The notes under the pieces were generated by a model. It saw nothing but the letters and a program-made list of their open reading frames with translations. It made no database searches and was not told the DNA's origin. This document shows, one piece after another, positions 3,087-20,475 of a DNA stretch of 26,881 nucleotides; position 1 is the stretch's first letter; each line of letters opens with the position of its first letter. The position numbers and the translations under genes were made by a program. This DNA is from a virus, in IMG/VR virus record IMGVR_UViG_3300050821_011572, positions 1 through 26,881 of that record. One strand, 5' to 3'.

Positions 3087-3602
3087 TTACAGATTACCAA
3101 ACGGATGAAGAGATCGCTTTGCCGCGAGATATGCGGCGTGAGCCTCTTCGGCAGATTGGAAAACTCCAAGATGATGCGCCTTACCGCAGATTGTAATACT
3201 AGAACGAAAGGGTCTGCGGGCACTCGGAGATCTAAACACGCCAATCAAGCCAGTTCCACTATCGCGCCTCGCCTGTTTTCTATTTTGCTGATTTTCAGCC
3301 GAGGATGCCTTACGCAGATTTGCAAATCTATTGTTCATCCCATTGCCATCAATATGGTCAATATGCCCTTCAGGCCAATTACCGTTCACATAAAGCCATG
3401 CAAGGCAGTGGGCGCCATACGATTCATTGAATATGCCAATATTAATGTACCCTTGGACGATGGATCCAGCTACCGTCCCCACTCGATTCCGTCCCCGTGG
3501 ACTTCGTTTGATCCAAGTAAATATGCCAGTGCTTGGATCGTAATTAAGAAACTCGCGCAGCACTTGCGCGCTAAACTTCGGCTTAGCCATGGTGCGATTC
3601 AT
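3087..3602 (-). CDS. HNH homing-type endonuclease with AP2 DNA-binding domain
   Basis: This 171-aa protein carries an HNH nuclease core: H65 in AHCLAWLYVNG, then IDHIDGNGMNNRFANLR at 81-97 containing the HxxxN...N arrangement. A C-terminal AP2-like DNA-binding domain follows, from GVFRSP near 121 to about 166, with GVFQSAEEAHAAYLAAK typical of the helix. This domain pair defines free-standing phage homing endonucleases that nick or cut intronless alleles and spread by repair. A second ATG at 3590 gives a protein starting MAKPKF and is equally plausible; neither start has a strong ribosome binding site. The gene is antisense to its neighbours, ends two bases from the preceding rightward gene and is visibly AT-richer than the flanks, consistent with a mobile insertion. 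Confidence 0.9.
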   Translation of the reverse strand: MNRTMAKPKFSAQVLREFLNYDPSTGIFTWIKRSPRGRNRVGTVAGSIVQGYINIGIFNESYGAHCLAWLYVNGNWPEGHIDHIDGNGMNNRFANLRKASSAENQQNRKQARRDSGTGLIGVFRSPSARRPFRSSITICGKAHHLGVFQSAEEAHAAYLAAKRSLHPFGNL

Positions 3603-8353: not shown

Positions 8354-8595
8354 TGGCCGAGCGCCTCGCGCCAGTCCGCGCAATCACCACATTCTTGGAC
8401 GGCCTCGCGACAGCCCTTGGTGATGTCATCCGGATCGATTTGCTCGAAGATGCTGACGAGTCCCGTCCCGCTGCAGGACTCGCAGGCGGCCGCGGCCGCG
8501 AGCACCCGGTCGCGCAGGCGCAGGTTCTCGGCGCGCACCTGGTCCAGCTCTTTTTCGAGCAGCAGCAGCTTGCGGGTGAACTCGATTTTCGTCAC
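8350..8595 (-). CDS. Coiled-coil and zinc-knuckle protein
   Basis: An 81-aa protein starting at GTG 8595 (GTGA overlap). The N-terminal 35 residues form a coiled coil (LLLLEKELDQVRAENLRLRD). Two Cys pairs follow: CESCSGTG at 38-45, a DnaJ-like CxxCxGxG half-knuckle, and CREAVQECGDC at 62-72. The arrangement suggests one zinc site at the end of a dimerising helix. A DnaJ-type co-chaperone role cannot be claimed because there is no J domain. Function is unknown. Confidence 0.68.
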   Translation of the reverse strand: MTKIEFTRKLLLLEKELDQVRAENLRLRDRVLAAAAACESCSGTGLVSIFEQIDPDDITKGCREAVQECGDCADWREALGQ

Positions 8596-9101
8596 GTCTT
8601 AATCTCGAGACGCTCACCCGCTTCCACATATGCGCCCTCGACGCGCTCCCCCTTGCCGATCGCGGCCTTGATGGCAGCCTTGTCGATGCGCTTGTCGGGC
8701 GGCGGGGGCTGCACCCAGAACTGCTCGGGAATCGCGTGCTCATCGGTGATGACGACGGCGGGCGGATTGGCGCGGCGCGCGATCACGAGCTCCGGCGACT
8801 CGATGCGCTTCTTGCCCGTGGCCTGTAAATGGAATTGTAAGTACGCCTTGATGGAGGCCGCGCGATTCGCGATGCGGTTCGAGCGGCCCATCATCTGGGT
8901 GGCCGCGACGCGCACCGCTTCCGCGTTCGCCTCGAGCGAGAGGATGAACTTCGCGACCTGCACCGCTTTCACCTCGAAGTCCCCCTCGAGCGCCTCCAAG
9001 GTGTCCGCAATGACCTCTGCTGGCAGATCGTCCGACTCGCCCAACTGTTCGAGCGATTGGAACTGCGCGGAAATCTCGTAGAGTTTGAGTGCGCTGTTCA
9101 T
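8592..9101 (-). CDS. Gp157-family protein (Sipho_Gp157)
   Basis: A 169-aa protein matching the Gp157 layout. The N-terminus, MNSALKLYEISAQFQSLEQL, corresponds to the family's LYELTxxYxxL start. An acidic stretch precedes DTLEALEGDFEVKAVQVAKF, and a long helix follows (NRIANRAASIKAYLQFHLQA). The C-terminal part carries the family phrases RRANPPAVVITDEHAIPEQF and PDKRIDKAAIKAAIGKGE, then VEGAYVE. Family members lie beside recombination genes in many phages and one was linked to phage resistance in Streptococcus; the molecular role is unsettled. Here it is two genes downstream of a RecT-like protein. The ribosome binding site GATGAGG precedes the ATG, which overlaps the upstream stop. Confidence 0.85.
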   Translation of the reverse strand: MNSALKLYEISAQFQSLEQLGESDDLPAEVIADTLEALEGDFEVKAVQVAKFILSLEANAEAVRVAATQMMGRSNRIANRAASIKAYLQFHLQATGKKRIESPELVIARRANPPAVVITDEHAIPEQFWVQPPPPDKRIDKAAIKAAIGKGERVEGAYVEAGERLEIKT

Positions 9102-9319
9102 GACGAAACCTCATCGAAATTGATTCGAACTTCTTCGCGCGGTGGCCCTGGATACTTGTAAAACCCTCGCGAATAGAGGGTGTCGACCAACTTTCCGAAG
9201 ATCTCAGGCCCCACGTTCTCGATGGCCAGGTGCGTGCATTCTTCCTGCCGCATGCGGGTCAGCTGCACCGTGAGCGCAAGGACCACTTCCAACTCATGCT
9301 TGTAGAGCGATATGCGCAT
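9098..9319 (-). CDS. Hypothetical protein between RecT-like and Gp157 genes
   Basis: A 73-aa protein beginning MRISLYKHELEVVLALTVQL, helical at first, then IENVGPEIFGKLVDTLYSRG and a short Pro-rich segment. ATG 9319 overlaps the upstream stop (TGATG); a GTG at 9322 is in frame directly before it, so the start may be one codon earlier. No family is recognised. Being locked between two recombination-associated genes suggests a role in the same process, by context only. Confidence 0.68.
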   Translation of the reverse strand: MRISLYKHELEVVLALTVQLTRMRQEECTHLAIENVGPEIFGKLVDTLYSRGFYKYPGPPREEVRINFDEVSS

Positions 9320-10086
9320 CACGATGCGTCCGCCATGTCGCGCGCCTGCGCATCGGCGATCGCCTGCTTCATGGAGTCCTTGACGGCTGCATAACGCTGG
9401 AGCGTGGGCTTGTGCTTGGTCGATGCCTTGGCCGCTGCGTACGCCGCCTGCAGGGCGGGGAGCGTCGTGACATCCATCGCATTGACGTACGCCTCCACCT
9501 CGTTCAAGTCGGGGGCTTGCGCCGCTTGCGCGATCGCCGCGGTCACCGGTTGGGCCTCAGCCGGCGCCTCCATGTCGCGCACCTCTTCGGGCGTGTAGGC
9601 CCCTGAGGTCGCCGACGGGGCGGTCGCGCGCACGCCCTCCGACACACAGCGGCTCCTGAGCATGGCGCGTGGGTACTTGCTGTACATGCCGCCGTTCTTG
9701 TCGACGAGCCCGGCGCGTTTGGCGCGTTCGATATCCCAATCGATGCGCAGCGGCTTGGGGCTGAGCGGATGCGTGAACGTGGCCGAGGCCATTTTGTCGG
9801 TGAGTTCGTGCCATTCAATCTTGCCGCCCGAGGCCTGGAAGTCGCGCATCATCGCCTCGGGTTTCTTGGCCGCCCGGCCCTGGATGACATCGTAGTCGCG
9901 CGCAATGACCGCCGGGTGCTTGCCCTCGGCCTGCGCGATCATCATCAGGGATAACGCCTGGTCGGCATCCTTGACGCCGAAGAGGCCCGACTTCGCGATC
10001 GCGACCGCCATGCGCTGCATGTCGGCGAAGCTGAAAGTGGGCGCGGGGGCGTCGGTGGCCAAAATCACATCTTGCTTAGCGTTCAT
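9319..10086 (-). CDS. RecT-like single-strand annealing / recombination protein
   Basis: A 255-aa protein. The N-terminal 150 residues match the layout of RecT-type phage recombination proteins. FADMQRMAVAIAKSGLFG and DADQALSLMMIAQAEGKHP correspond to the usual low-dose/sampling helix. YDVIQGRAAKKPEAMMRDFQ corresponds to the substrate loop with INGRPSxxxDAM. Then come IERAKRAGLVDKNGGMYSKY and PRAMLRSRCVSEGVR, the conserved YPxxMLxxRAxxxxxR ending. The C-terminal third is Ala-rich and likely a flexible and helical interaction region. RecT proteins anneal complementary strands during phage recombination. The ribosome binding site AAGGAG lies in the tail of the upstream gene. No partner exonuclease is recognisable in this window. 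Confidence is moderate because this is a divergent branch. Confidence 0.72.
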   Translation of the reverse strand: MNAKQDVILATDAPAPTFSFADMQRMAVAIAKSGLFGVKDADQALSLMMIAQAEGKHPAVIARDYDVIQGRAAKKPEAMMRDFQASGGKIEWHELTDKMASATFTHPLSPKPLRIDWDIERAKRAGLVDKNGGMYSKYPRAMLRSRCVSEGVRATAPSATSGAYTPEEVRDMEAPAEAQPVTAAIAQAAQAPDLNEVEAYVNAMDVTTLPALQAAYAAAKASTKHKPTLQRYAAVKDSMKQAIADAQARDMADAS

Positions 10087-11064: not shown

Positions 11065-11082
11065 GTGCTCCAATCGACACCT

Positions 11083-11307
11083 ATGGAAACCGTCGACGAC
11101 ATTTTTGCGATTTGGGACTCGGTGGCCGACATGGCGCGCGACCTCGATATGCCCTATCAGACGGTCTCCAAGTGGCAGCAACGCGCCCGCATTCCCTATG
11201 AATCGTGGGAGGCAGTCATCAAGGCGGCAGGGGTTGAAGGCTACGAGTTGACGTTCGAGCAGCTCGCCAAGATCAATCGCCCGCGCCTCAACGCCAGCAC
11301 GACATGA
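11083..11307 (+). CDS. Cro-like HTH transcriptional regulator
   Basis: A 74-aa protein beginning METVDDIFAIWDSVADMARD. Residues 13-32 form the helix-turn-helix (SVADMARDLDMPYQTVSKWQ), followed by RARIPYESWEAVIKAAG, a layout seen in many Cro-like phage and prophage regulators. It should bind the operator half-sites just upstream and control the divergent early promoters. I chose ATG 11083; a GTG at 11065 is in frame but lies at or before the likely transcript start. There is no ribosome binding site before the ATG and a very short leader is expected, so translation may be leaderless or nearly so. The stop overlaps a tiny ATG frame. Confidence 0.8.
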   Translation: METVDDIFAIWDSVADMARDLDMPYQTVSKWQQRARIPYESWEAVIKAAGVEGYELTFEQLAKINRPRLNASTT

Positions 11308-11357: not shown

Positions 11358-13577
11358 ATGTCGACCGTGGACTATCGCCAGTTCCTGGCCGACAAGGCCA
11401 TCACCTCGCCCTTGAGCGGCGTCACCTTCGAGCCGGTGCTGCGCGAGCACCTGTTCCCGTTCCAGCGCGATATCGTGCGCTGGGCCCTGAAGCGGGGGCG
11501 GGCGGCGATCTTCGCCGACTGCGGCATGGGCAAAACCCCGATGCAGTTGGAATGGGCACGGGTGGTGGCGGAAACGCAGGGGCCGGTGCTGATCCTGGCG
11601 CCGCTGGCGGTGGCACAGCAAACGGTGCGCGAGTGCGAGAAGTTCTACACCGATATGTCGGTGTACTACCACCGCGCGATGCCCGAAGTCACCCGCGGCA
11701 TCACCATCACCAATTACGAGATGCTGCAGCATTTCGACCCGTCGAAGTTTGCCGGCATCGTGCTGGACGAAAGCAGCATCTTGAAAGCCTACGACGGCAA
11801 AACCCGCACTGCGATCATCGAGGCCTTCGCGCAAACCCCCTACCGGCTGGCCTGCACCGCGACTCCGGCGCCCAACGATTACATGGAGTTAGGCAACCAT
11901 GCGCAATTCGTCGGCTCCATGTCGCGGGTCGAGATGCTGTCGATGTTCTTCGTGCACGATGGCGGCGAGACGCAGCAATGGCGCCTGAAGGGCCACGCCG
12001 AGCAGGATTTCTGGCGCTGGCTGGCCTCATGGGCGGTGATGATCCGCAAGCCCTCCGACTTGGGTTATGACGACGGCGCGTTCATCCTGCCCAAGCTGTC
12101 ATTGCATGAGCATGTGATGCACGTCGAGAAGGCCACCGATGGCTATCTGTTTGCGCTCGAGGCGGTGACCCTGCAGGACCGGATCGCCGCGCGCCGCGAG
12201 TCGGTGGTGGATCGGGTGGCCGAATGTGCCGCGCTGGTCAACACCAGCGATCAGCCGTGGGTGGTGTGGTGCAATCTCAACAGTGAATCGGAGGCCCTGC
12301 GCAAGGCCATTCCGGATGCCATCGAGATCCGCGGCAGTCAGTCGAACGAGGACAAAGAAGCGGCCATCCTGGCGTTTCTCGATGGCTCCGCGCGGGTGCT
12401 CATCACCAAGGCCTCGATGTCGGGATTTGGCTTGAATTTGCAGCACTGCGCGCACATGGCGTTTGTCGGATTATCCGATAGTTGGGAGCAGTTCTACCAG
12501 GCGATTCGCCGCTGCTACCGGTTCGGTCAAGTCCGCGAAGTCAACGCGCATCTCATCATCGCCAGCACCGAGGGCGCGGTGCTGAAAAACATCAAGGACA
12601 AAGACACGGCCGCCGGCGTGATGGCCGAGTCGATCGTCAATCACATGCGTGCCGAAATGCGCGCCAACATCCAGACCGGAACGGTGCGGCACATGAACCA
12701 GTACGAGCGCGAAGTCGTGGGCGGCGATCACTATGCGATGCACTTGGGTGATTGCGTCGAGGTGGTGAAAGACCTCGCGCCCGATTCGATCCACTACAGC
12801 ATCTTTTCGCCGCCGTTCGCCTCGCTCTACACCTATTCCGCGTCCGATCGCGACATGGGCAATTGCCGGGATCAGGACGACTTTCTGACGCATTTCGGCT
12901 TCCTGGTGAGAGACCTGTACCGCGTCACCATGCCGGGCCGGCTGTTGAGTTTTCACTGCATGAATATCCCGACCACCAAGACGCATCATGGCTATATCGG
13001 CATCCAGGATTTCCGCGGCGATTTGATTCGGCTGTTCGAGGCGGTTGGATTTATCTTCCATTCCGAAGTGTGCATCTGGAAAGATCCGGTCACGGCGATG
13101 CAGCGCACCAAGGCGTTGGGGCTCTTGTACAAGCAGCTCAAAAAAGATTCGGCCATGTCGCGCCAGGGCATTCCCGATTACCTGGTGACGATGTGCAAGC
13201 CGGGCGAGAACCCGGAGCGCGTGACGCACACCGCCGAGGACTTCCCGGTGGGTGTGTGGCAGAACTACGCGAGCCCGGTGTGGATGGATATCGCTCCGTC
13301 CGACACCTTGCAGTTTCGCTCGGCACGTGAAGAGAACGACGAGCGGCATATCTGCCCGTTGCAATTGGGCGTCATTCAACGAGGGATCGAATTATGGACG
13401 AATCCAGGCGATACCGTCTTAAGCCCCTTCGCCGGCATTGGCAGCGAGGGCTACGTCGCGCTGCAGAATGGGCGGCGGTTCATTGGCGTGGAGCTGAAGC
13501 GTTCCTATTGGCAACAGGCGTGCGAGAACTTGCGCCAGGCGAAGCGCGTCATGGGCGATTTGTTCGACGTCGCGTGA
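11358..13577 (+). CDS. SNF2-like helicase fused to N4-type (beta-class) DNA methyltransferase
   Basis: One 739-aa polypeptide with two enzymes. Residues 30-430 are an SNF2/superfamily-2 ATPase: Walker A GMGKT (56-60), motif II LDESS (136-140, DES in place of the common DEAH), motif III TATP (167-170), and a C-terminal lobe with ITKASMSGFGLNLQ (349-362) and motif VI QAIRRCYRFGQ (381-391). Residues 450-739 are a DNA methyltransferase. The catalytic SPPF (484-487) comes first, then HICPLQL (664-670) and the SAM-binding PFAGIGSEG (690-698). That order marks the beta class and SPPF favours N4-cytosine. The gene is directly after the Cro-like gene and overlaps the DUF1376 gene (TGATG), so it belongs to the early replication operon. 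Likely roles are self-methylation against host restriction, or replication/remodelling; which one is not visible. No nuclease motif is present. Confidence 0.9.
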   Translation: MSTVDYRQFLADKAITSPLSGVTFEPVLREHLFPFQRDIVRWALKRGRAAIFADCGMGKTPMQLEWARVVAETQGPVLILAPLAVAQQTVRECEKFYTDMSVYYHRAMPEVTRGITITNYEMLQHFDPSKFAGIVLDESSILKAYDGKTRTAIIEAFAQTPYRLACTATPAPNDYMELGNHAQFVGSMSRVEMLSMFFVHDGGETQQWRLKGHAEQDFWRWLASWAVMIRKPSDLGYDDGAFILPKLSLHEHVMHVEKATDGYLFALEAVTLQDRIAARRESVVDRVAECAALVNTSDQPWVVWCNLNSESEALRKAIPDAIEIRGSQSNEDKEAAILAFLDGSARVLITKASMSGFGLNLQHCAHMAFVGLSDSWEQFYQAIRRCYRFGQVREVNAHLIIASTEGAVLKNIKDKDTAAGVMAESIVNHMRAEMRANIQTGTVRHMNQYEREVVGGDHYAMHLGDCVEVVKDLAPDSIHYSIFSPPFASLYTYSASDRDMGNCRDQDDFLTHFGFLVRDLYRVTMPGRLLSFHCMNIPTTKTHHGYIGIQDFRGDLIRLFEAVGFIFHSEVCIWKDPVTAMQRTKALGLLYKQLKKDSAMSRQGIPDYLVTMCKPGENPERVTHTAEDFPVGVWQNYASPVWMDIAPSDTLQFRSAREENDERHICPLQLGVIQRGIELWTNPGDTVLSPFAGIGSEGYVALQNGRRFIGVELKRSYWQQACENLRQAKRVMGDLFDVA

Positions 13578-14149
13578 TGAACTATTTCGAGTTGCATATC
13601 AGCGACTACCAGCGCAAGACCGCGCACCTGTCCCTCGCCGAGCATGGCGCCTACTCGCTGATGCTGCAAACCTTCTATGCCTCGGAACGCCCGCTGCCGG
13701 CCGAGCGCAAAGTACTCTACCGGCTACTGCGGGCCAATTCGGCTGCCGAGCGCAAGGCGATTGATTCGGTTGCCGGGCAATTTTGGCAGCAAGGGGAGCA
13801 GGGGCTCACCAATAAGCGCGCTGCTGAAGTGCTCGATGTCTATAAGCGATGGGTTACCAAACAGAAAGCCAATGGTTCTAAAGGAGGACGGCCAAAGGAA
13901 ACCCACGGGTTAAGCAATGGGATAACCCAAACGGAACCCAACGGCAACCCAACGGGGGGGGACTCTGATCAAGACTCTGACTTCCCACTTCCCACTTTGA
14001 CTTCAACTTCCCACACACACTCCGACTCCGAATCTGACGCGGGCGCAGGCGCGCCACGCGGGCGTGTGGGGGGAAATAGAAAACGGCGTGAGGAACCGGA
14101 GTCCGACTGGAAACCCCCGACCGAGGAGGAAATCCGTGCAGGAAAGTGA
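13577..14149 (+). CDS. DUF1376 replication-associated protein
   Basis: A 190-aa protein. The first 95 residues match DUF1376, found in phage and prophage replication genes: YFELHISDYQRKTAHLSLAE, then HGAYSLMLQTFYASERPLP and KRAAEVLDVYKRW. A linker with SKGGRPKE leads into a Ser/Thr/His/Asp-rich low-complexity region and a charged tail (NRKRREEPESDW). Family members are thought to act in replication initiation, often as the N-terminal part of an origin-binding protein. The ATG overlaps the helicase-methyltransferase stop. An 8-G run at 13954-13961 lies in the linker and is a potential slippage or sequencing-error point. The low-complexity segment is a possible origin region, though no iterons were seen. 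Confidence 0.8.
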   Translation: MNYFELHISDYQRKTAHLSLAEHGAYSLMLQTFYASERPLPAERKVLYRLLRANSAAERKAIDSVAGQFWQQGEQGLTNKRAAEVLDVYKRWVTKQKANGSKGGRPKETHGLSNGITQTEPNGNPTGGDSDQDSDFPLPTLTSTSHTHSDSESDAGAGAPRGRVGGNRKRREEPESDWKPPTEEEIRAGK

Positions 14150-14687: not shown

Positions 14688-14878
14688 CCGAAACGCCCCC
14701 CACCGACGATGACGAAGGCGACGATGAGGATGCGCGCCGGCAAGCGCACGCCGAACTGATCGGCCAGCGGCAGGCGCCACCGCCCCCCGACTGGCTCACC
14801 GCGCAAGCCCGCGCCATCGGCACCGCACGGCCCAAACCGCCGCCGGGCGTGTACACCAAGCGCTGGAGAAAGCCATGA
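14684..14878 (+). CDS. Small acidic/proline-rich hypothetical protein
   Basis: A 64-aa protein with an acidic start (TDDDEGDDEDARRQ), a Pro-rich middle (APPPPDWLTAQARA) and a basic C-terminus (KPPPGVYTKRWRKP). It is probably disordered. It is joined to both neighbours by ATGA overlaps. Such spacers in replication operons have no known function; the basic tail might contact DNA. Confidence 0.65.
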   Translation: MTETPPTDDDEGDDEDARRQAHAELIGQRQAPPPPDWLTAQARAIGTARPKPPPGVYTKRWRKP

Positions 14879-15186
14879 CCGGCAAGTCCGCGCTGCGCGC
14901 CGCCTTAGGCAACCGCGATGCCAATCACGCGGATGTGACGCGCTGGTACTCGGAATTGTATTGCACGGTCCAAGATACGCACGCTGTCGGCGGTGGATTC
15001 CCGGACATCGTGGTCAAAATTCCAACGAAACGCGGACCCCAGGTAGCGCTGGTCGAGGTCAAGACCACCGATGGCACTTTACGGGCGAGCCAAATCTGCT
15101 TCATCGCCGAGTGGGGCTCGTGTGTCACCGTGGTGCAAACGCGCGCCGATGTGTTCGATCACGTGGAGCGCGTGCGCAATGGCTGA
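14875..15186 (+). CDS. PD-(D/E)XK nuclease (VRR-NUC / resolvase-like)
   Basis: A 103-aa protein with the restriction-endonuclease-like core: GGGFPDIVV (D44) followed by VALVEVKTTDG (E61, K63) and ASQICFIAEWG (Q73). This is the D...ExK...Q pattern of VRR-NUC and Holliday-junction-resolvase-like phage nucleases. The closing CVTVVQTRADVFDHV is the usual last strand and helix. It lies in the replication operon where RusA-type resolvases often sit, so processing of branched DNA before packaging is the likely role. The ATG overlaps the preceding stop. Confidence 0.8.
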   Translation: MTGKSALRAALGNRDANHADVTRWYSELYCTVQDTHAVGGGFPDIVVKIPTKRGPQVALVEVKTTDGTLRASQICFIAEWGSCVTVVQTRADVFDHVERVRNG

Positions 15187-16484: not shown

Positions 16485-16754
16485 ATGGCCGGCAAACCTG
16501 GGCGAAGCGGACGCAAGAAAGGCACGCCCAACAAGGCCACTGTGACGGCCCGCGAAGCGATTGCCGCTTTCATCGACGGCAACGCGGGAAACCTGCAGAA
16601 ATGGCTCGATGAGGTGTACCGGGCCGATGGCCCGAAAGCCGCATTGGCCTGTTACAACGATCTGGTCGAGTTCCACGTGCCCAAACTCGCGCGCACCGAG
16701 ATCTCGAGCCCCGACGGCAGTGCGCTGTCGCTGACCATCCAGTTATCCAAATGA
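16485..16754 (+). CDS. Putative terminase small subunit / DNA-binding protein
   Basis: An 89-aa protein beginning MAGKPGRSGRKKGTPNKATV, a basic, AT-hook-like N-terminus seen in proteins encoded just upstream of phage large terminases. A helical body follows (AREAIAAFIDGNAGNLQKWL, then GPKAALACYNDLVEFHVPKL). It overlaps TerL by ATGA. Position and DNA-binding character point to packaging-site recognition, but it is shorter than typical TerS proteins and lacks an obvious HTH, so it may be an accessory protein. There is no strong ribosome binding site; the 35 bases upstream are AT-rich and hold no clear promoter. Confidence 0.6.
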   Translation: MAGKPGRSGRKKGTPNKATVTAREAIAAFIDGNAGNLQKWLDEVYRADGPKAALACYNDLVEFHVPKLARTEISSPDGSALSLTIQLSK

Positions 16755-18223
16755 CCACCAGCTACGTCTACAAAAGCCCGGGCGTGGTGTGCGATCAGTT
16801 CTTACTCTCGCAAGCCTTCCTGGTGGGCCTGCGCGGTCCCATTGGCGGCGGCAAGTCGACCGCCTGCGTGATGAAGCTGCTCTCGATCGCGGACAAGCAG
16901 CACATCGCCAAGGATGGGCGCAAGCACGCGCGTTTTGCCATCATCAGGAATACCTACCCCGAGCTCGTCACCACCACCATCAAGACCTGGCATCAGTGGG
17001 TGCCGGAGTCGATCGGCAGCTGGCGTGGGCAAGGCCCGCCGACGCATCGCATTATCGATGACAAGTTGGACCTCGAGGTGATCTTCGTCTCGCTCGATCG
17101 CCCGCAGGACGTGCGCAAGGTGTTGGGGATGGAACTGACCGCGGCCTGGATCAACGAGGCGCGCGAGGTCGGCAAGGAGCTCTTAGACGGGCTCACCGGG
17201 CGGGTGGGGCGCTTCCCGTCCGAGCGCGATGGCGGCTGTGTGGGCGCGCAGATCCTGATGGACACCAACCCGCCGCAGGTCGATCACTGGTGGTACGTGT
17301 TGGCCGAAGAGGACACCTCGAGTGAGCGCAACGCGCAGCTGGTCGAGTCGGTCAAGCTCGCCGAGGCGGAGATGCGTGCCAAGGGTCTGCTGGATAAATA
17401 TCAGCCGCTGTTCCAGTTCTACGCGCAGCCCGATGCCAACTCCCCCGATGGTGAGAACCTGCAGAACCTGCCGCCGGCGTATTACGCGAAGGCCTCGGCC
17501 GGCAAGAGCGAGGAATGGAAAAAGGTCTACATCCGCGGCGAGTACGGCTTCGTGCAGGACGGTCGGCCGGTCTACCCGGAGTTCCGTGAAGCGCTGCACG
17601 TCAAGGAGTTTGAGTTGAATCCACGCCTGCCCCTCTCCTTAGGGGTGGACTATGGCCTGACACCCGCTGCCGCCATTGGGCAGCGCTCTTTTACCGGCAT
17701 CCACCGCGTGCGCTGGGAGGTCGTGACCGAGCACATGGGCGCGAAGCAATTCTCCGATGTGCTGCGCGGTTTCTTGAACCAATACTGCAGTCAGTTCAAT
17801 TTCGATTCGATGACCGGGGACCCGGCTGGCGATGCCGATTCGCAGACGGATTCCGATGAATCGTGCTTCAAGATCATGCGGGTGAACGGCTTCCCCGAGA
17901 TGCGCCCGGCGCACACCAACGATCCCACCATCCGGCGCGAGGCCCATGCGCAGGCGATGAACCGGCTCATTGACGGCCAGGCCGGCTGGCAGGTGCACCC
18001 GCAAGGGTGCCCCACGTTGCGGCGTGGCATGGCGGGGCAGTACCGCTACAAGCGCGTCCAGATGCCGGGGGATGACCGCTATCACGATAAGCCGGAGAAA
18101 AACTCGGTGAGCCACGTGTGCGAGGCGGATCAATACCGGATGCTCGGCTGTGGCGAGGGGCGGGTGGTGCTGCGCGGAACCTTGGGCGGCAGGCGAAGTA
18201 GGCCAGCTTATTCGATCATGTAG
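16751..18223 (+). CDS. terL: Terminase large subunit
   Basis: A 490-aa packaging motor and nuclease. N-terminal ATPase: Walker A GPIGGGKST (29-37), RNTYPELVTTTIKTW (66-80) around the adenine/arginine region, Walker B with catalytic Glu at LTAAWINEA (129-137) and coupling motif ILMDTNPP (168-175). C-terminal RNase-H-like nuclease: GVDYGLTPAAAIG (298-310) and GDPAGDADS (356-364) supply acidic metal ligands. The length is normal for the family. It cuts concatemers and drives DNA into the prohead through the portal encoded just downstream. The start overlaps the small gene's stop. The packaging strategy (cos or headful) cannot be decided by eye. Confidence 0.95.
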   Translation: MTTSYVYKSPGVVCDQFLLSQAFLVGLRGPIGGGKSTACVMKLLSIADKQHIAKDGRKHARFAIIRNTYPELVTTTIKTWHQWVPESIGSWRGQGPPTHRIIDDKLDLEVIFVSLDRPQDVRKVLGMELTAAWINEAREVGKELLDGLTGRVGRFPSERDGGCVGAQILMDTNPPQVDHWWYVLAEEDTSSERNAQLVESVKLAEAEMRAKGLLDKYQPLFQFYAQPDANSPDGENLQNLPPAYYAKASAGKSEEWKKVYIRGEYGFVQDGRPVYPEFREALHVKEFELNPRLPLSLGVDYGLTPAAAIGQRSFTGIHRVRWEVVTEHMGAKQFSDVLRGFLNQYCSQFNFDSMTGDPAGDADSQTDSDESCFKIMRVNGFPEMRPAHTNDPTIRREAHAQAMNRLIDGQAGWQVHPQGCPTLRRGMAGQYRYKRVQMPGDDRYHDKPEKNSVSHVCEADQYRMLGCGEGRVVLRGTLGGRRSRPAYSIM

Positions 18224-18270
18224 GCGCCCGGCGACTTTCATGTGCCCGCCACTTGAGGCATAAGCTCGCC

Positions 18271-18561
18271 ATGAGCTTTGCCCCTGCACTTCACAAGGCG
18301 ATCGGTTGGCTGGACCCGGTGCAGAGCAAGGTCTTTGGCCAAAAGTTCTCCGACTCCACCGACTTAGCCTATCAGGCGTTCAAGCCGAAGACGCCGCCGG
18401 CGCCCCCCGGGGTGCCCAACCCGAACGACGCCATGAACGCCGCGCAGCAGCAGACCGATGCGATGCGCATGCGCCGCGGGCTCATGAGCAACATCTACGC
18501 GGGCAGCCTGCAGGGCCAGGCCTCGCAGCCGGTGAGCGGAAAGACAGCCCTTGGCACCTAG
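18271..18561 (+). CDS. Hypothetical protein between terminase and portal
   Basis: A 96-aa protein beginning MSFAPALHKAIGWLDPVQSK. It has a Pro-rich centre (PKTPPAPPGVPNPNDAMNAA) and a Met/Arg helix (QQQTDAMRMRRGLMSNIYAG), and ends in a polar tail. I chose ATG 18271; a TTG six codons earlier is in frame. Small proteins of this style precede the head-tail connector gene in related podoviruses and may be minor virion components. No domain is recognised. Confidence 0.68.
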   Translation: MSFAPALHKAIGWLDPVQSKVFGQKFSDSTDLAYQAFKPKTPPAPPGVPNPNDAMNAAQQQTDAMRMRRGLMSNIYAGSLQGQASQPVSGKTALGT

Positions 18562-18814
18562 TGCGCTCACCAAGGCGACCGCGCTCTACCGGTACGCGAT
18601 GGAGCAGGGCGCCGCGCTCGAGACCTTTCAGTTAGCGCTCACCGATGCCGAGGCATTCGAGATCCTCGATTGGTTCAAGGCGCAGATGGAGCCGAATGGC
18701 CTCTTCGAGGTGGACCTGGAGATTGCGCACCGCACCGGCCGGCCCTTCGAGATGCTCGGGAATTTCCATCTGATGGGGATTGCGATCGTGCGCGCGAACC
18801 TGGCCTTAAACTGA
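18551..18814 (+). CDS. Small hypothetical protein upstream of portal
   Basis: An 87-aa protein with a TTG start at 18551 preceded by GGAAAGACAGCCC; the first in-frame ATG is at 18599. It contains LALTDAEAFEILDWFKAQME and GLFEVDLEIAHRTGRPFEML, then HLMGIAIVRANLALN. It overlaps the preceding stop by 11 bases and the portal start by TGATG. No family is recognised; conserved position suggests a minor morphogenesis role. Confidence 0.65.
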   Translation: MAPSALTKATALYRYAMEQGAALETFQLALTDAEAFEILDWFKAQMEPNGLFEVDLEIAHRTGRPFEMLGNFHLMGIAIVRANLALN

Positions 18815-20475
18815 TGTCGGACGACGCCAATTCGCTGATTCAGCAGTACCAGGATCTATGGACCAAGCAGGGTAACTTCCGGTCCTTGTGGAACGTCGCC
18901 GCGCAGTTCTGCATGCCCGCCTGGGATTTGTTCATCGGCGAATTTGCCGAGGGCGTGAACCGCAACACCCGCGTCTTTGACTCCACCGCCATCATCGCCA
19001 ATGAACGCTTTGCCGCCTGCATGGAGGCGATGCTCACCCCGCGTGCGCAAGTGTGGGAGAAGAGCAAGCCCGACGATGAAGCACTGGACGACAACCCCGC
19101 GGTCGCCAAGTACATGGATCAGGTGGACAAGATTCGCTTTGCGGCCCGCTACCATCCGGCGGCGAACTTCGCGAGCCAGACGGACGAGTGCTACATGTCG
19201 TTGGGCGCCTTCGGCAACAACTGCATGTTCGTCGACGAGATGTTAGGGCACAGCTTGCGCTATCGCTCCATTCCCTTGCCCGAGCTCGTGTGGGCCTTGA
19301 ATCACCAGCGCATGGTCGACACGGTATTCCGCAAATTCAAGTACACCGCCAAGCAGGCGGTCGATCACTGGGGCGCCAAGGGCAACATCCCGCCCGCCAT
19401 CACGCGGGTGCTCTCCACCAATCCGTACCAGGAATTTGAGTTCCTGCACTGCATTCGACCTAATCCCGATCACGTGCCATTCGCCTATGGCGATAAGGGC
19501 AAGAAATTTGAGTGCTGGTACATCTACTTGGGTGATAAATCCGTCCTATCTCGCGGTGGATATCGGACCTTTCCGTGTGCAATTGGACGATATCGAATGG
19601 CTCCCGGTGAGAGTTACGGCCGAGGGCCAGCAACTACGTGTCTCCCTGACGTACGAACTGCGAACGAGATGGTTAAGACCGGCCTACGAGCAGGTCAAAA
19701 AGCCGTAGATCCGCCGATCCTGCTAGCCGAAGAGTCGGTCCTCAACAACTTCAATCAGCGCTCGGGCGCCAATAACTACGGCATGGTGAGCGCGGACGGC
19801 AAGCCGCTCGCCATTCCGTTTGAGTCCAAAGCCAATTTTCAGCTCGCGGACAAGCTGCTCGATTCCACCCGCCAGGTGATCCGCGACACGTTCTTGAACA
19901 CGCTGTTTCAGATCCTGGTGCAAAACCCCAACATGACCGCCACCGAGGCGCTCTTGCGGGCGCAGGAGAAGGGCGAACTCATCGCGCCTGCGATGGGCCG
20001 CCAGCAGTCCGAGTTCTTAGGGCCCATGATCTTTCGCGAGATCGACATTCTCTCGGAAGCGAATCAGCTGCCGCCGCCGCCGATGGAACTGGTGCGTAGC
20101 AAGCGCGGGATTCGCATCGAATACACCTCGCCGCTGGCGCGGGCACTGCGCGCGGAAGAGGGCACCGCCATCATGAATACGGTGTCCGATATCGCACAGA
20201 TGGCGAACTTGGACAAATCGGTGCTGCGCATCATGGACTTTCACGATGCGGTGCGCGAGATGGCGCAGATCCGCGGCTGTCCCGCCAAACTCATCCTATC
20301 CGAGGACCAGGTGCAAATCCTCATGCAGAACGATCAGCAGCAAGAACAGGCCACTGCCGCCGCGCAACAGGCGCCGCAGGTGAGCCTCGGCGTTAAGAAC
20401 TTGGCGCAGGCCGCGCAGGCCGCAGCGTCCGCCGGTGGCGGTCAACCGGGCGCGCAAGCGCAACCCGCCGCATGA
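18814..20475 (+). CDS. Portal (head-tail connector protein, podovirus type)
   Basis: A 553-aa protein of the head-tail connecting family. Early motifs are LWNVAAQFCMPAWDLF (25-40), RNTRVFDSTA (50-59) and AACMEAMLTPRAQVW (67-81). The signature block GYRTFPCAIGRYRMAPGESY (249-268), then GRGPATTCLPD and TANEM, ends near 285; KAVDPPILL follows at 296-304. The C-terminal wing is Gln/Ala-rich. Portals form the dodecameric ring through which TerL packages DNA and to which the tail attaches. Codon choice is unlike the rest of the gene at about 19540-19710 (CTA, CGA, GGA, GTA), where a second open frame also reads like protein. The start overlaps the preceding gene and the stop overlaps the tailspike start. 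Confidence 0.93.
   Translation: MSDDANSLIQQYQDLWTKQGNFRSLWNVAAQFCMPAWDLFIGEFAEGVNRNTRVFDSTAIIANERFAACMEAMLTPRAQVWEKSKPDDEALDDNPAVAKYMDQVDKIRFAARYHPAANFASQTDECYMSLGAFGNNCMFVDEMLGHSLRYRSIPLPELVWALNHQRMVDTVFRKFKYTAKQAVDHWGAKGNIPPAITRVLSTNPYQEFEFLHCIRPNPDHVPFAYGDKGKKFECWYIYLGDKSVLSRGGYRTFPCAIGRYRMAPGESYGRGPATTCLPDVRTANEMVKTGLRAGQKAVDPPILLAEESVLNNFNQRSGANNYGMVSADGKPLAIPFESKANFQLADKLLDSTRQVIRDTFLNTLFQILVQNPNMTATEALLRAQEKGELIAPAMGRQQSEFLGPMIFREIDILSEANQLPPPPMELVRSKRGIRIEYTSPLARALRAEEGTAIMNTVSDIAQMANLDKSVLRIMDFHDAVREMAQIRGCPAKLILSEDQVQILMQNDQQQEQATAAAQQAPQVSLGVKNLAQAAQAAASAGGGQPGAQAQPAA

Follow-up and report, generated by a model that had tools for sequence, protein, structure and literature searches.

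The term "DNA methylase-helicase dyad" comes from Iyer et al. (2017), who found SWI2/SNF2 ATPases widely coupled to adenine methylases in phages and plasmids, either within one polypeptide or within one gene neighbourhood; translocation-linked methylation was proposed for these dyads by analogy with type III enzymes (PMC5512222). The DarB protein of phage P1, which protects P1 DNA in cis, and the dyads of polyvalent proteins are phage proteins in which an SNF2-clade ATPase is joined to a DNA methyltransferase (PMC5512222). DarB is a virion protein with an LPD36 domain, in which a gamma-class NPP(Y/F) adenine methylase is located N-terminal to the helicase. Type III (Mod + Res) and Type ISP restriction-modification enzymes also have an SF2 motor that works with a DNA methyltransferase, and the Type ISP methylase belongs to the gamma class. 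The domain order of the locus studied here, helicase and then methylase, is found in the PHROG 16 "DNA helicase/methylase" proteins of actinophages, which are fused in Isolde gp73, Sarma624 gp65 and Pacc40 gp60 and encoded by adjacent genes in Aubs (gp66-67) and Zucker (gp71-72); the proteins of these five phages are about 28-45% identical to the protein analysed here. The helicase domain followed by the methylase domain has been described for Pacc40 gp60 (PMC11855218). Full-length one-chain fusions with 56-58% identity are present in Synechococcus phage S-CBS3 (gp40) and in a Methanosarcinales virus (vir525_00007), where they are labelled only "DNA methylase" or "DNA helicase"; their hosts and neighbouring genes differ from those of our locus.

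The gene at 11358..13577 (+ strand) of the window, by which we mean the whole stretch of 26,881 nucleotides of viral DNA analysed here (positions 1 to 26,881 of IMG/VR record IMGVR_UViG_3300050821_011572), is a fused member of this widespread phage SNF2 helicase-methylase dyad of the PHROG 16 type. It encodes an SNF2 ATPase followed by a beta-class methylase, the catalytic motifs of both are intact, and the protein branches within the family tree, with fused as well as split relatives around it. The novelty implied by the initial annotation of this DNA did not hold, because many phage records annotate the fusion (GenBank product names of relatives include "DNA helicase/methyltransferase fusion protein" and "DNA helicase/methylase"), one case is described in PMC11855218, and both the dyad and its proposed mechanism appear in PMC5512222. 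A megablast search of the phage collection with the window returned no nearly identical phage.

The open reading frame is uninterrupted, starts with ATG and contains 739 codons plus a stop, giving a protein of 739 amino acids; Pfam and PHROG matches, an 82%-identical homologue (L001) and many other homologues support the gene. The protein consists of an SNF2-type ATPase joined through a helical linker to a beta-class N4/N6 DNA methyltransferase, and the PHROG 16 profile ("DNA helicase") aligned with residues 31-738, i.e. across both halves. AlphaFold2, run with 81 sequences (window and IMG/VR), produced a model with a mean pLDDT of 87.9 and a pTM of 0.80. Profile searches and structure prediction, two of the checks proposed by the initial annotation, recovered both the SNF2 ATPase half and the beta-class methyltransferase half. 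Its description of a single chain was confirmed by the intact reading frame and by three Pfam domains above their curated cut-offs, and so was the order of helicase (residues about 30-430) and then methyltransferase (about 452-732) by Pfam and AlphaFold2. All of the motifs it quoted (GMGKT, TATP, QAIRRCYRFGQ, SPPF and PFAGIGSEG) are present in the translation. Comparison with the L001 protein gave a dN of ~0.14 in each half, with synonymous sites near saturation, and both halves are under similarly strong purifying selection.

The helicase half is an SNF2-type SF2 ATPase module (11445..12647, + strand), identified with Pfam (PF00176 and PF00271) and Foldseek. The SNF2-rel_dom model matched residues 36-180 and the Helicase_C model residues 295-390, each at 1.9e-7 and above the curated cut-off, and the top Foldseek matches were the SNF2 remodellers CSB, Chd1, Sth1 and Isw1, together with Mot1. 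By these matches, the protein has the two-lobe ATPase with motifs I-VI of the SNF2 family. Conservation was analysed in 72 de-replicated homologues. The GxGK of motif I (Walker A, CGMGKT, residues 55-60, 11520..11537, + strand) is kept in all 70 rows that have a residue there, a TATP motif occupies residues 167-170, and Q381, R385, R388 and Q391 of motif VI (QAIRRCYRFGQ, residues 381-391, 12498..12530, + strand) are each present in 72/72. Motif II had been noted as DES rather than DEAH. The DES is there (residues 137-139, 11766..11774, + strand), but it is not a sign of decay: DE is invariant (72/72), and DES is the norm of the family (66/72, the other 6 having DEA), which rules out a degenerate motif II. 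The DrmD, DpdE and ZorD models scored far below their NCBIfam cut-offs, and the helicase was not identified as one of the DISARM, Dpd or Zorya systems.

The methyltransferase domain of the second half spans residues about 452-732 (12711..13553, + strand) and is of the beta-class N4/N6 type (Pfam PF01555, phmmer and Foldseek). The Pfam N6_N4_Mtase model matched residues 479-721 at 4.5e-14, above the curated cut-off, and both phmmer (5.8e-19) and Foldseek (TM-score 0.82-0.84 by target length) pointed to TTHA0409 of Thermus thermophilus. TTHA0409 (2zie/2zif/2zig) and M.PvuII share with this half the beta-class methyltransferase fold and the S-P-P motif IV, but they are stand-alone methylases without a motor. 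Motif IV is SPPF (residues 484-487, 12807..12818, + strand) in 67 of the 72 homologues, the remaining five having I at the first P, while S, the second P and F are each found in 72/72. Motif I (PFAGIGSEG, residues 690-698, 13425..13451, + strand) is likewise kept (G693 in 72/72, P and F in 71/72 each) and is located C-terminal to motif IV, which is the beta order; the protein thus combines a (S/T)PP(Y/W/F) motif IV ahead of an FxGxG motif I with a Rossmann fold. Judging from SPPF, cytosine N4 is the most likely methyl acceptor and 4mC the predicted product, a prediction that follows convention only. The DarB-type dyad speaks against the 4mC reading in that it methylates adenine, although with a different (gamma) methyltransferase. 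The protein has neither the gamma-class NPP(Y/F) methylase nor the N-terminal methylase position of DarB; unlike DarB, it carries a beta-class SPPF methylase at its C-terminal end, and its gene lies in a replication region.

In the AlphaFold2 model, a long helix (residues 403-440) is followed by a low-confidence stretch (about 431-450), after which the methylase begins. The linker after the helix (12678..12710, + strand) is the point at which the helicase stop and the methylase start of split homologues fall. The IMG/VR loci were gathered with short peptide patterns, each drawn from one half of the protein, and 70 of the 70 recovered loci encode both halves, always with the helicase first. In the phage collection, a close helicase (E up to 1e-30) was found in 306 records, and in 295 of them a single place contains 80% or more of the full-length fusion; the exceptions include snusmum6-3, which encodes the methylase separately but nearby, and Pacc40, where the gene is interrupted. 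Staphylococcus, Salmonella and Rhodobacter phages carry distant cousins of the helicase outside this E limit. The 72 de-replicated rows comprise 24 fused and 48 split pairs, every one in the helicase-then-methylase order. The tree requires 7 changes between fused and split (at least 4 being forced by well supported branches), as against about 20 with shuffled labels. In most split loci the methylase frame opens near or before the helicase stop in a different frame; a slight shift of frame is therefore enough to fuse or separate the halves. Five loci (L021, L047, L063, L064 and L066) have about 0.4-1.3 kb of other DNA between the two genes. Pairwise distances in one half track those in the other (r = 0.87, 67 sequences), as expected if the genes are inherited together.

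The initial annotation had allowed for the halves being usually separate genes that a sequencing error had joined here. The halves are indeed usually separate genes, two thirds of the homologues being split at this point, and this is what an error of sequencing or assembly would have going for it. The fusion in the window is nevertheless no such error, because its nearest kin, L001 (82% identical) and L005 (70%), share its fusion point. Fusion at the same linker recurs in the independent contigs L001-L009, L012 and L014 and in the sequenced phages S-CBS3, FCV-3 and vir525, and both halves are constrained within one frame. We consider the chance of an artefact negligible, and the independent fused homologues, in contigs and in sequenced phages, rule it out.

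The gene is the first large open reading frame after a gene for a small HTH protein (11065..11307, + strand), as had been claimed, and this possible Cro-like regulator is only weakly Cro/CI-like (Pfam Phage_CI_repr, E 0.0056, below the cut-off; PHROG 35, E 0.0014). At the end of the fusion gene opens a gene for a DUF1376/primosomal-type replication protein (13574..14149, + strand, start position approximate; Pfam PF07120, 1.1e-24; PHROG 9327, primosomal protein, 3.3e-26). The genes next to the homologues encode primosomal proteins, DnaB-like helicases, primases, processivity factors or beta clamps, SSB, ERF, NinB and RecA-like proteins. These neighbours support the location of the fusion gene in a replication/recombination module. 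Of the "early replication operon" previously assigned to it, the replication-module position is therefore backed by the neighbours, and "early" is deduced from position. The + strand upstream contained no sigma-70-like promoter, and promoter and terminator counts equalled those of shuffled sequences. In the flanks compared with L001, L005 and L002, the fusion gene is the only clear shared gene. Terminase and BcepC6B-like portal genes (16751-20475, + strand) mark the window as a podovirus-type fragment, and the nearest portals, at 36-43% identity, belong to Stenotrophomonas phages, Burkholderia phage BcepC6B and an uncultured phage. Genes for a RecT-like annealing protein (9319-10086) and a Gp157/Mu Gam-like protein (8592-9101) are on the leftward (-) side, which is a lambda-like divergent layout. 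An open reading frame at 3087-3602 (-) resembles, by eye, an HNH/AP2-type homing endonuclease. The replication module of L001 is fuller than that of the window: a second SF2 helicase is encoded just upstream of its fusion gene (L001:3079-4476), and a large protein judged by eye to be primase/VirE-like downstream of its fusion gene and VRR-NUC gene (L001:7945-10236).

Type I, ISP and III enzymes have a nuclease domain within the motor polypeptide. Pfam found no nuclease family within the 739-residue chain, and the motor is of the SNF2 rather than the ResIII type found in Type III/ISP enzymes. The earlier statement that no nuclease is present applies to the fusion protein and not to its surroundings, as a VRR-NUC nuclease gene (14875..15186, + strand; Pfam PF08774, 1.4e-7, above the cut-off) is located 1.3 kb downstream in the same rightward gene run. 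This arrangement could be read as a phage-borne restriction-modification or superinfection-exclusion system of a split, type III-like kind, with the VRR-NUC protein as the nuclease, and a VRR-NUC gene is also close to the pair in the records of L001, L005, L006 and L053. However, only 8 of the 48 related records yielded a VRR-NUC match (several of these lying no more than about 1.4 kb from the pair), S-LBS1 has a further SF2 helicase near it, as do the L001 and L005 records, and in Staphylococcus phages it adjoins the distant SNF2 cousin without a methylase of the fusion family. Such a system is accordingly a very improbable explanation, and VRR-NUC as an obligatory partner is rejected as a general rule. 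Given the 8 of 48 records, the other helicases nearby and the Staphylococcus phages, VRR-NUC is more likely a separate module that frequently travels in the same region. The window itself, unlike L001, L005 and S-LBS1, has no second SF2 helicase (a single Helicase_C match).

We slightly favour the explanation that the dyad methylates new phage DNA against host restriction, with the motor delivering or moving the methylase. For the SNF2 motor the prediction is translocation along duplex DNA; the methyltransferase would take its methyl group from SAM and pass it on, most likely to N4 of cytosine. By bringing the methylase to the DNA or moving it along, the motor would allow the pair to modify newly replicated phage DNA, which host restriction enzymes would then not cut. 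The chemistry follows from the conserved motifs, and methylation is the activity that these predict; the coupling of translocation to methylation and its anti-restriction purpose are suggested at one further remove. The coupling proposed in the initial annotation gained indirect support from the near-total co-occurrence of the halves, their repeated fusion and fission and the correlation of their distances, while translocation-driven methylation is an idea that we infer. The mechanism has precedent in the in-cis protection of P1 DNA by DarB and in the translocation-methylation model put forward for such dyads (PMC5512222). Against this explanation, the halves are separate proteins in two thirds of the homologues, and covalent coupling is therefore not required. 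The replication/recombination neighbourhood and the homology of the motor to remodellers and RapA/Mot1 would also suit two independent, co-expressed activities, in which the SNF2 motor would serve phage replication or recombination (remodelling forks or recombination intermediates, or clearing proteins off DNA) and the methylase would be merely tethered to it. The distant helicase cousins next to VRR-NUC, which lack this methylase, fit this alternative. The close relatives of the helicase, however, essentially always keep the methylase alongside, and several changes between fused and split with the order kept are unexpected for unrelated activities, so that we regard independent activities as unlikely.

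A target recognition domain would be expected between the catalytic motifs; that stretch is short in the protein of the window, and its mean pairwise identity is 0.44-0.57, as compared with 0.52 for the whole methyltransferase domain. The corresponding stretch of one family of phage methylases, taken as a control, reached 0.31-0.44 as against 0.57 overall; this family was the one usable control, since the matches of a second query were mostly partial and a third query returned just two loci. This suggests a conserved or short target, the unusual conservation being judged against a single control family. A short stretch conserved like the domain is more in keeping with a fixed target than with an arms race, and the gene is placed with primosomal, clamp and recombination genes, as might be expected if methylation served to regulate replication initiation, packaging or strand discrimination instead of countering restriction. 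Some clades, however, carry insertions of 11-69 residues at 629-635 that may alter specificity, and the target comparison involved one control family; a regulatory role is in our view improbable. A further version, which we rate as rather doubtful, has the motor driving a methylase of little or very short sequence specificity: lacking a discrete target recognition domain, the predicted 4mC methylase would be swept by the SNF2 motor along replicating phage DNA. If this were true, one conserved enzyme would protect phages of very different hosts from many restriction enzymes. The divergent fused subfamily L082-L086 (Sarma624, Isolde, CF24a, RR1-A and FCL-2) differs from the window protein by a methylase insertion of 69 residues at the position of window residue 635, which may be a true target recognition domain.

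Our literature search found no biochemical test of this common phage helicase-methylase pair, to which the window, a BcepC6B-like podovirus fragment, contributes one more fused representative. The comparative picture is the useful part, namely that the halves are almost inseparable and that the fused or split state has switched several times. These two properties make the published translocation-methylation hypothesis testable in cultured phages, which already carry fused (S-CBS3, FCV phages, Isolde and Sarma624) and split (Aubs and Zucker) versions of the pair.
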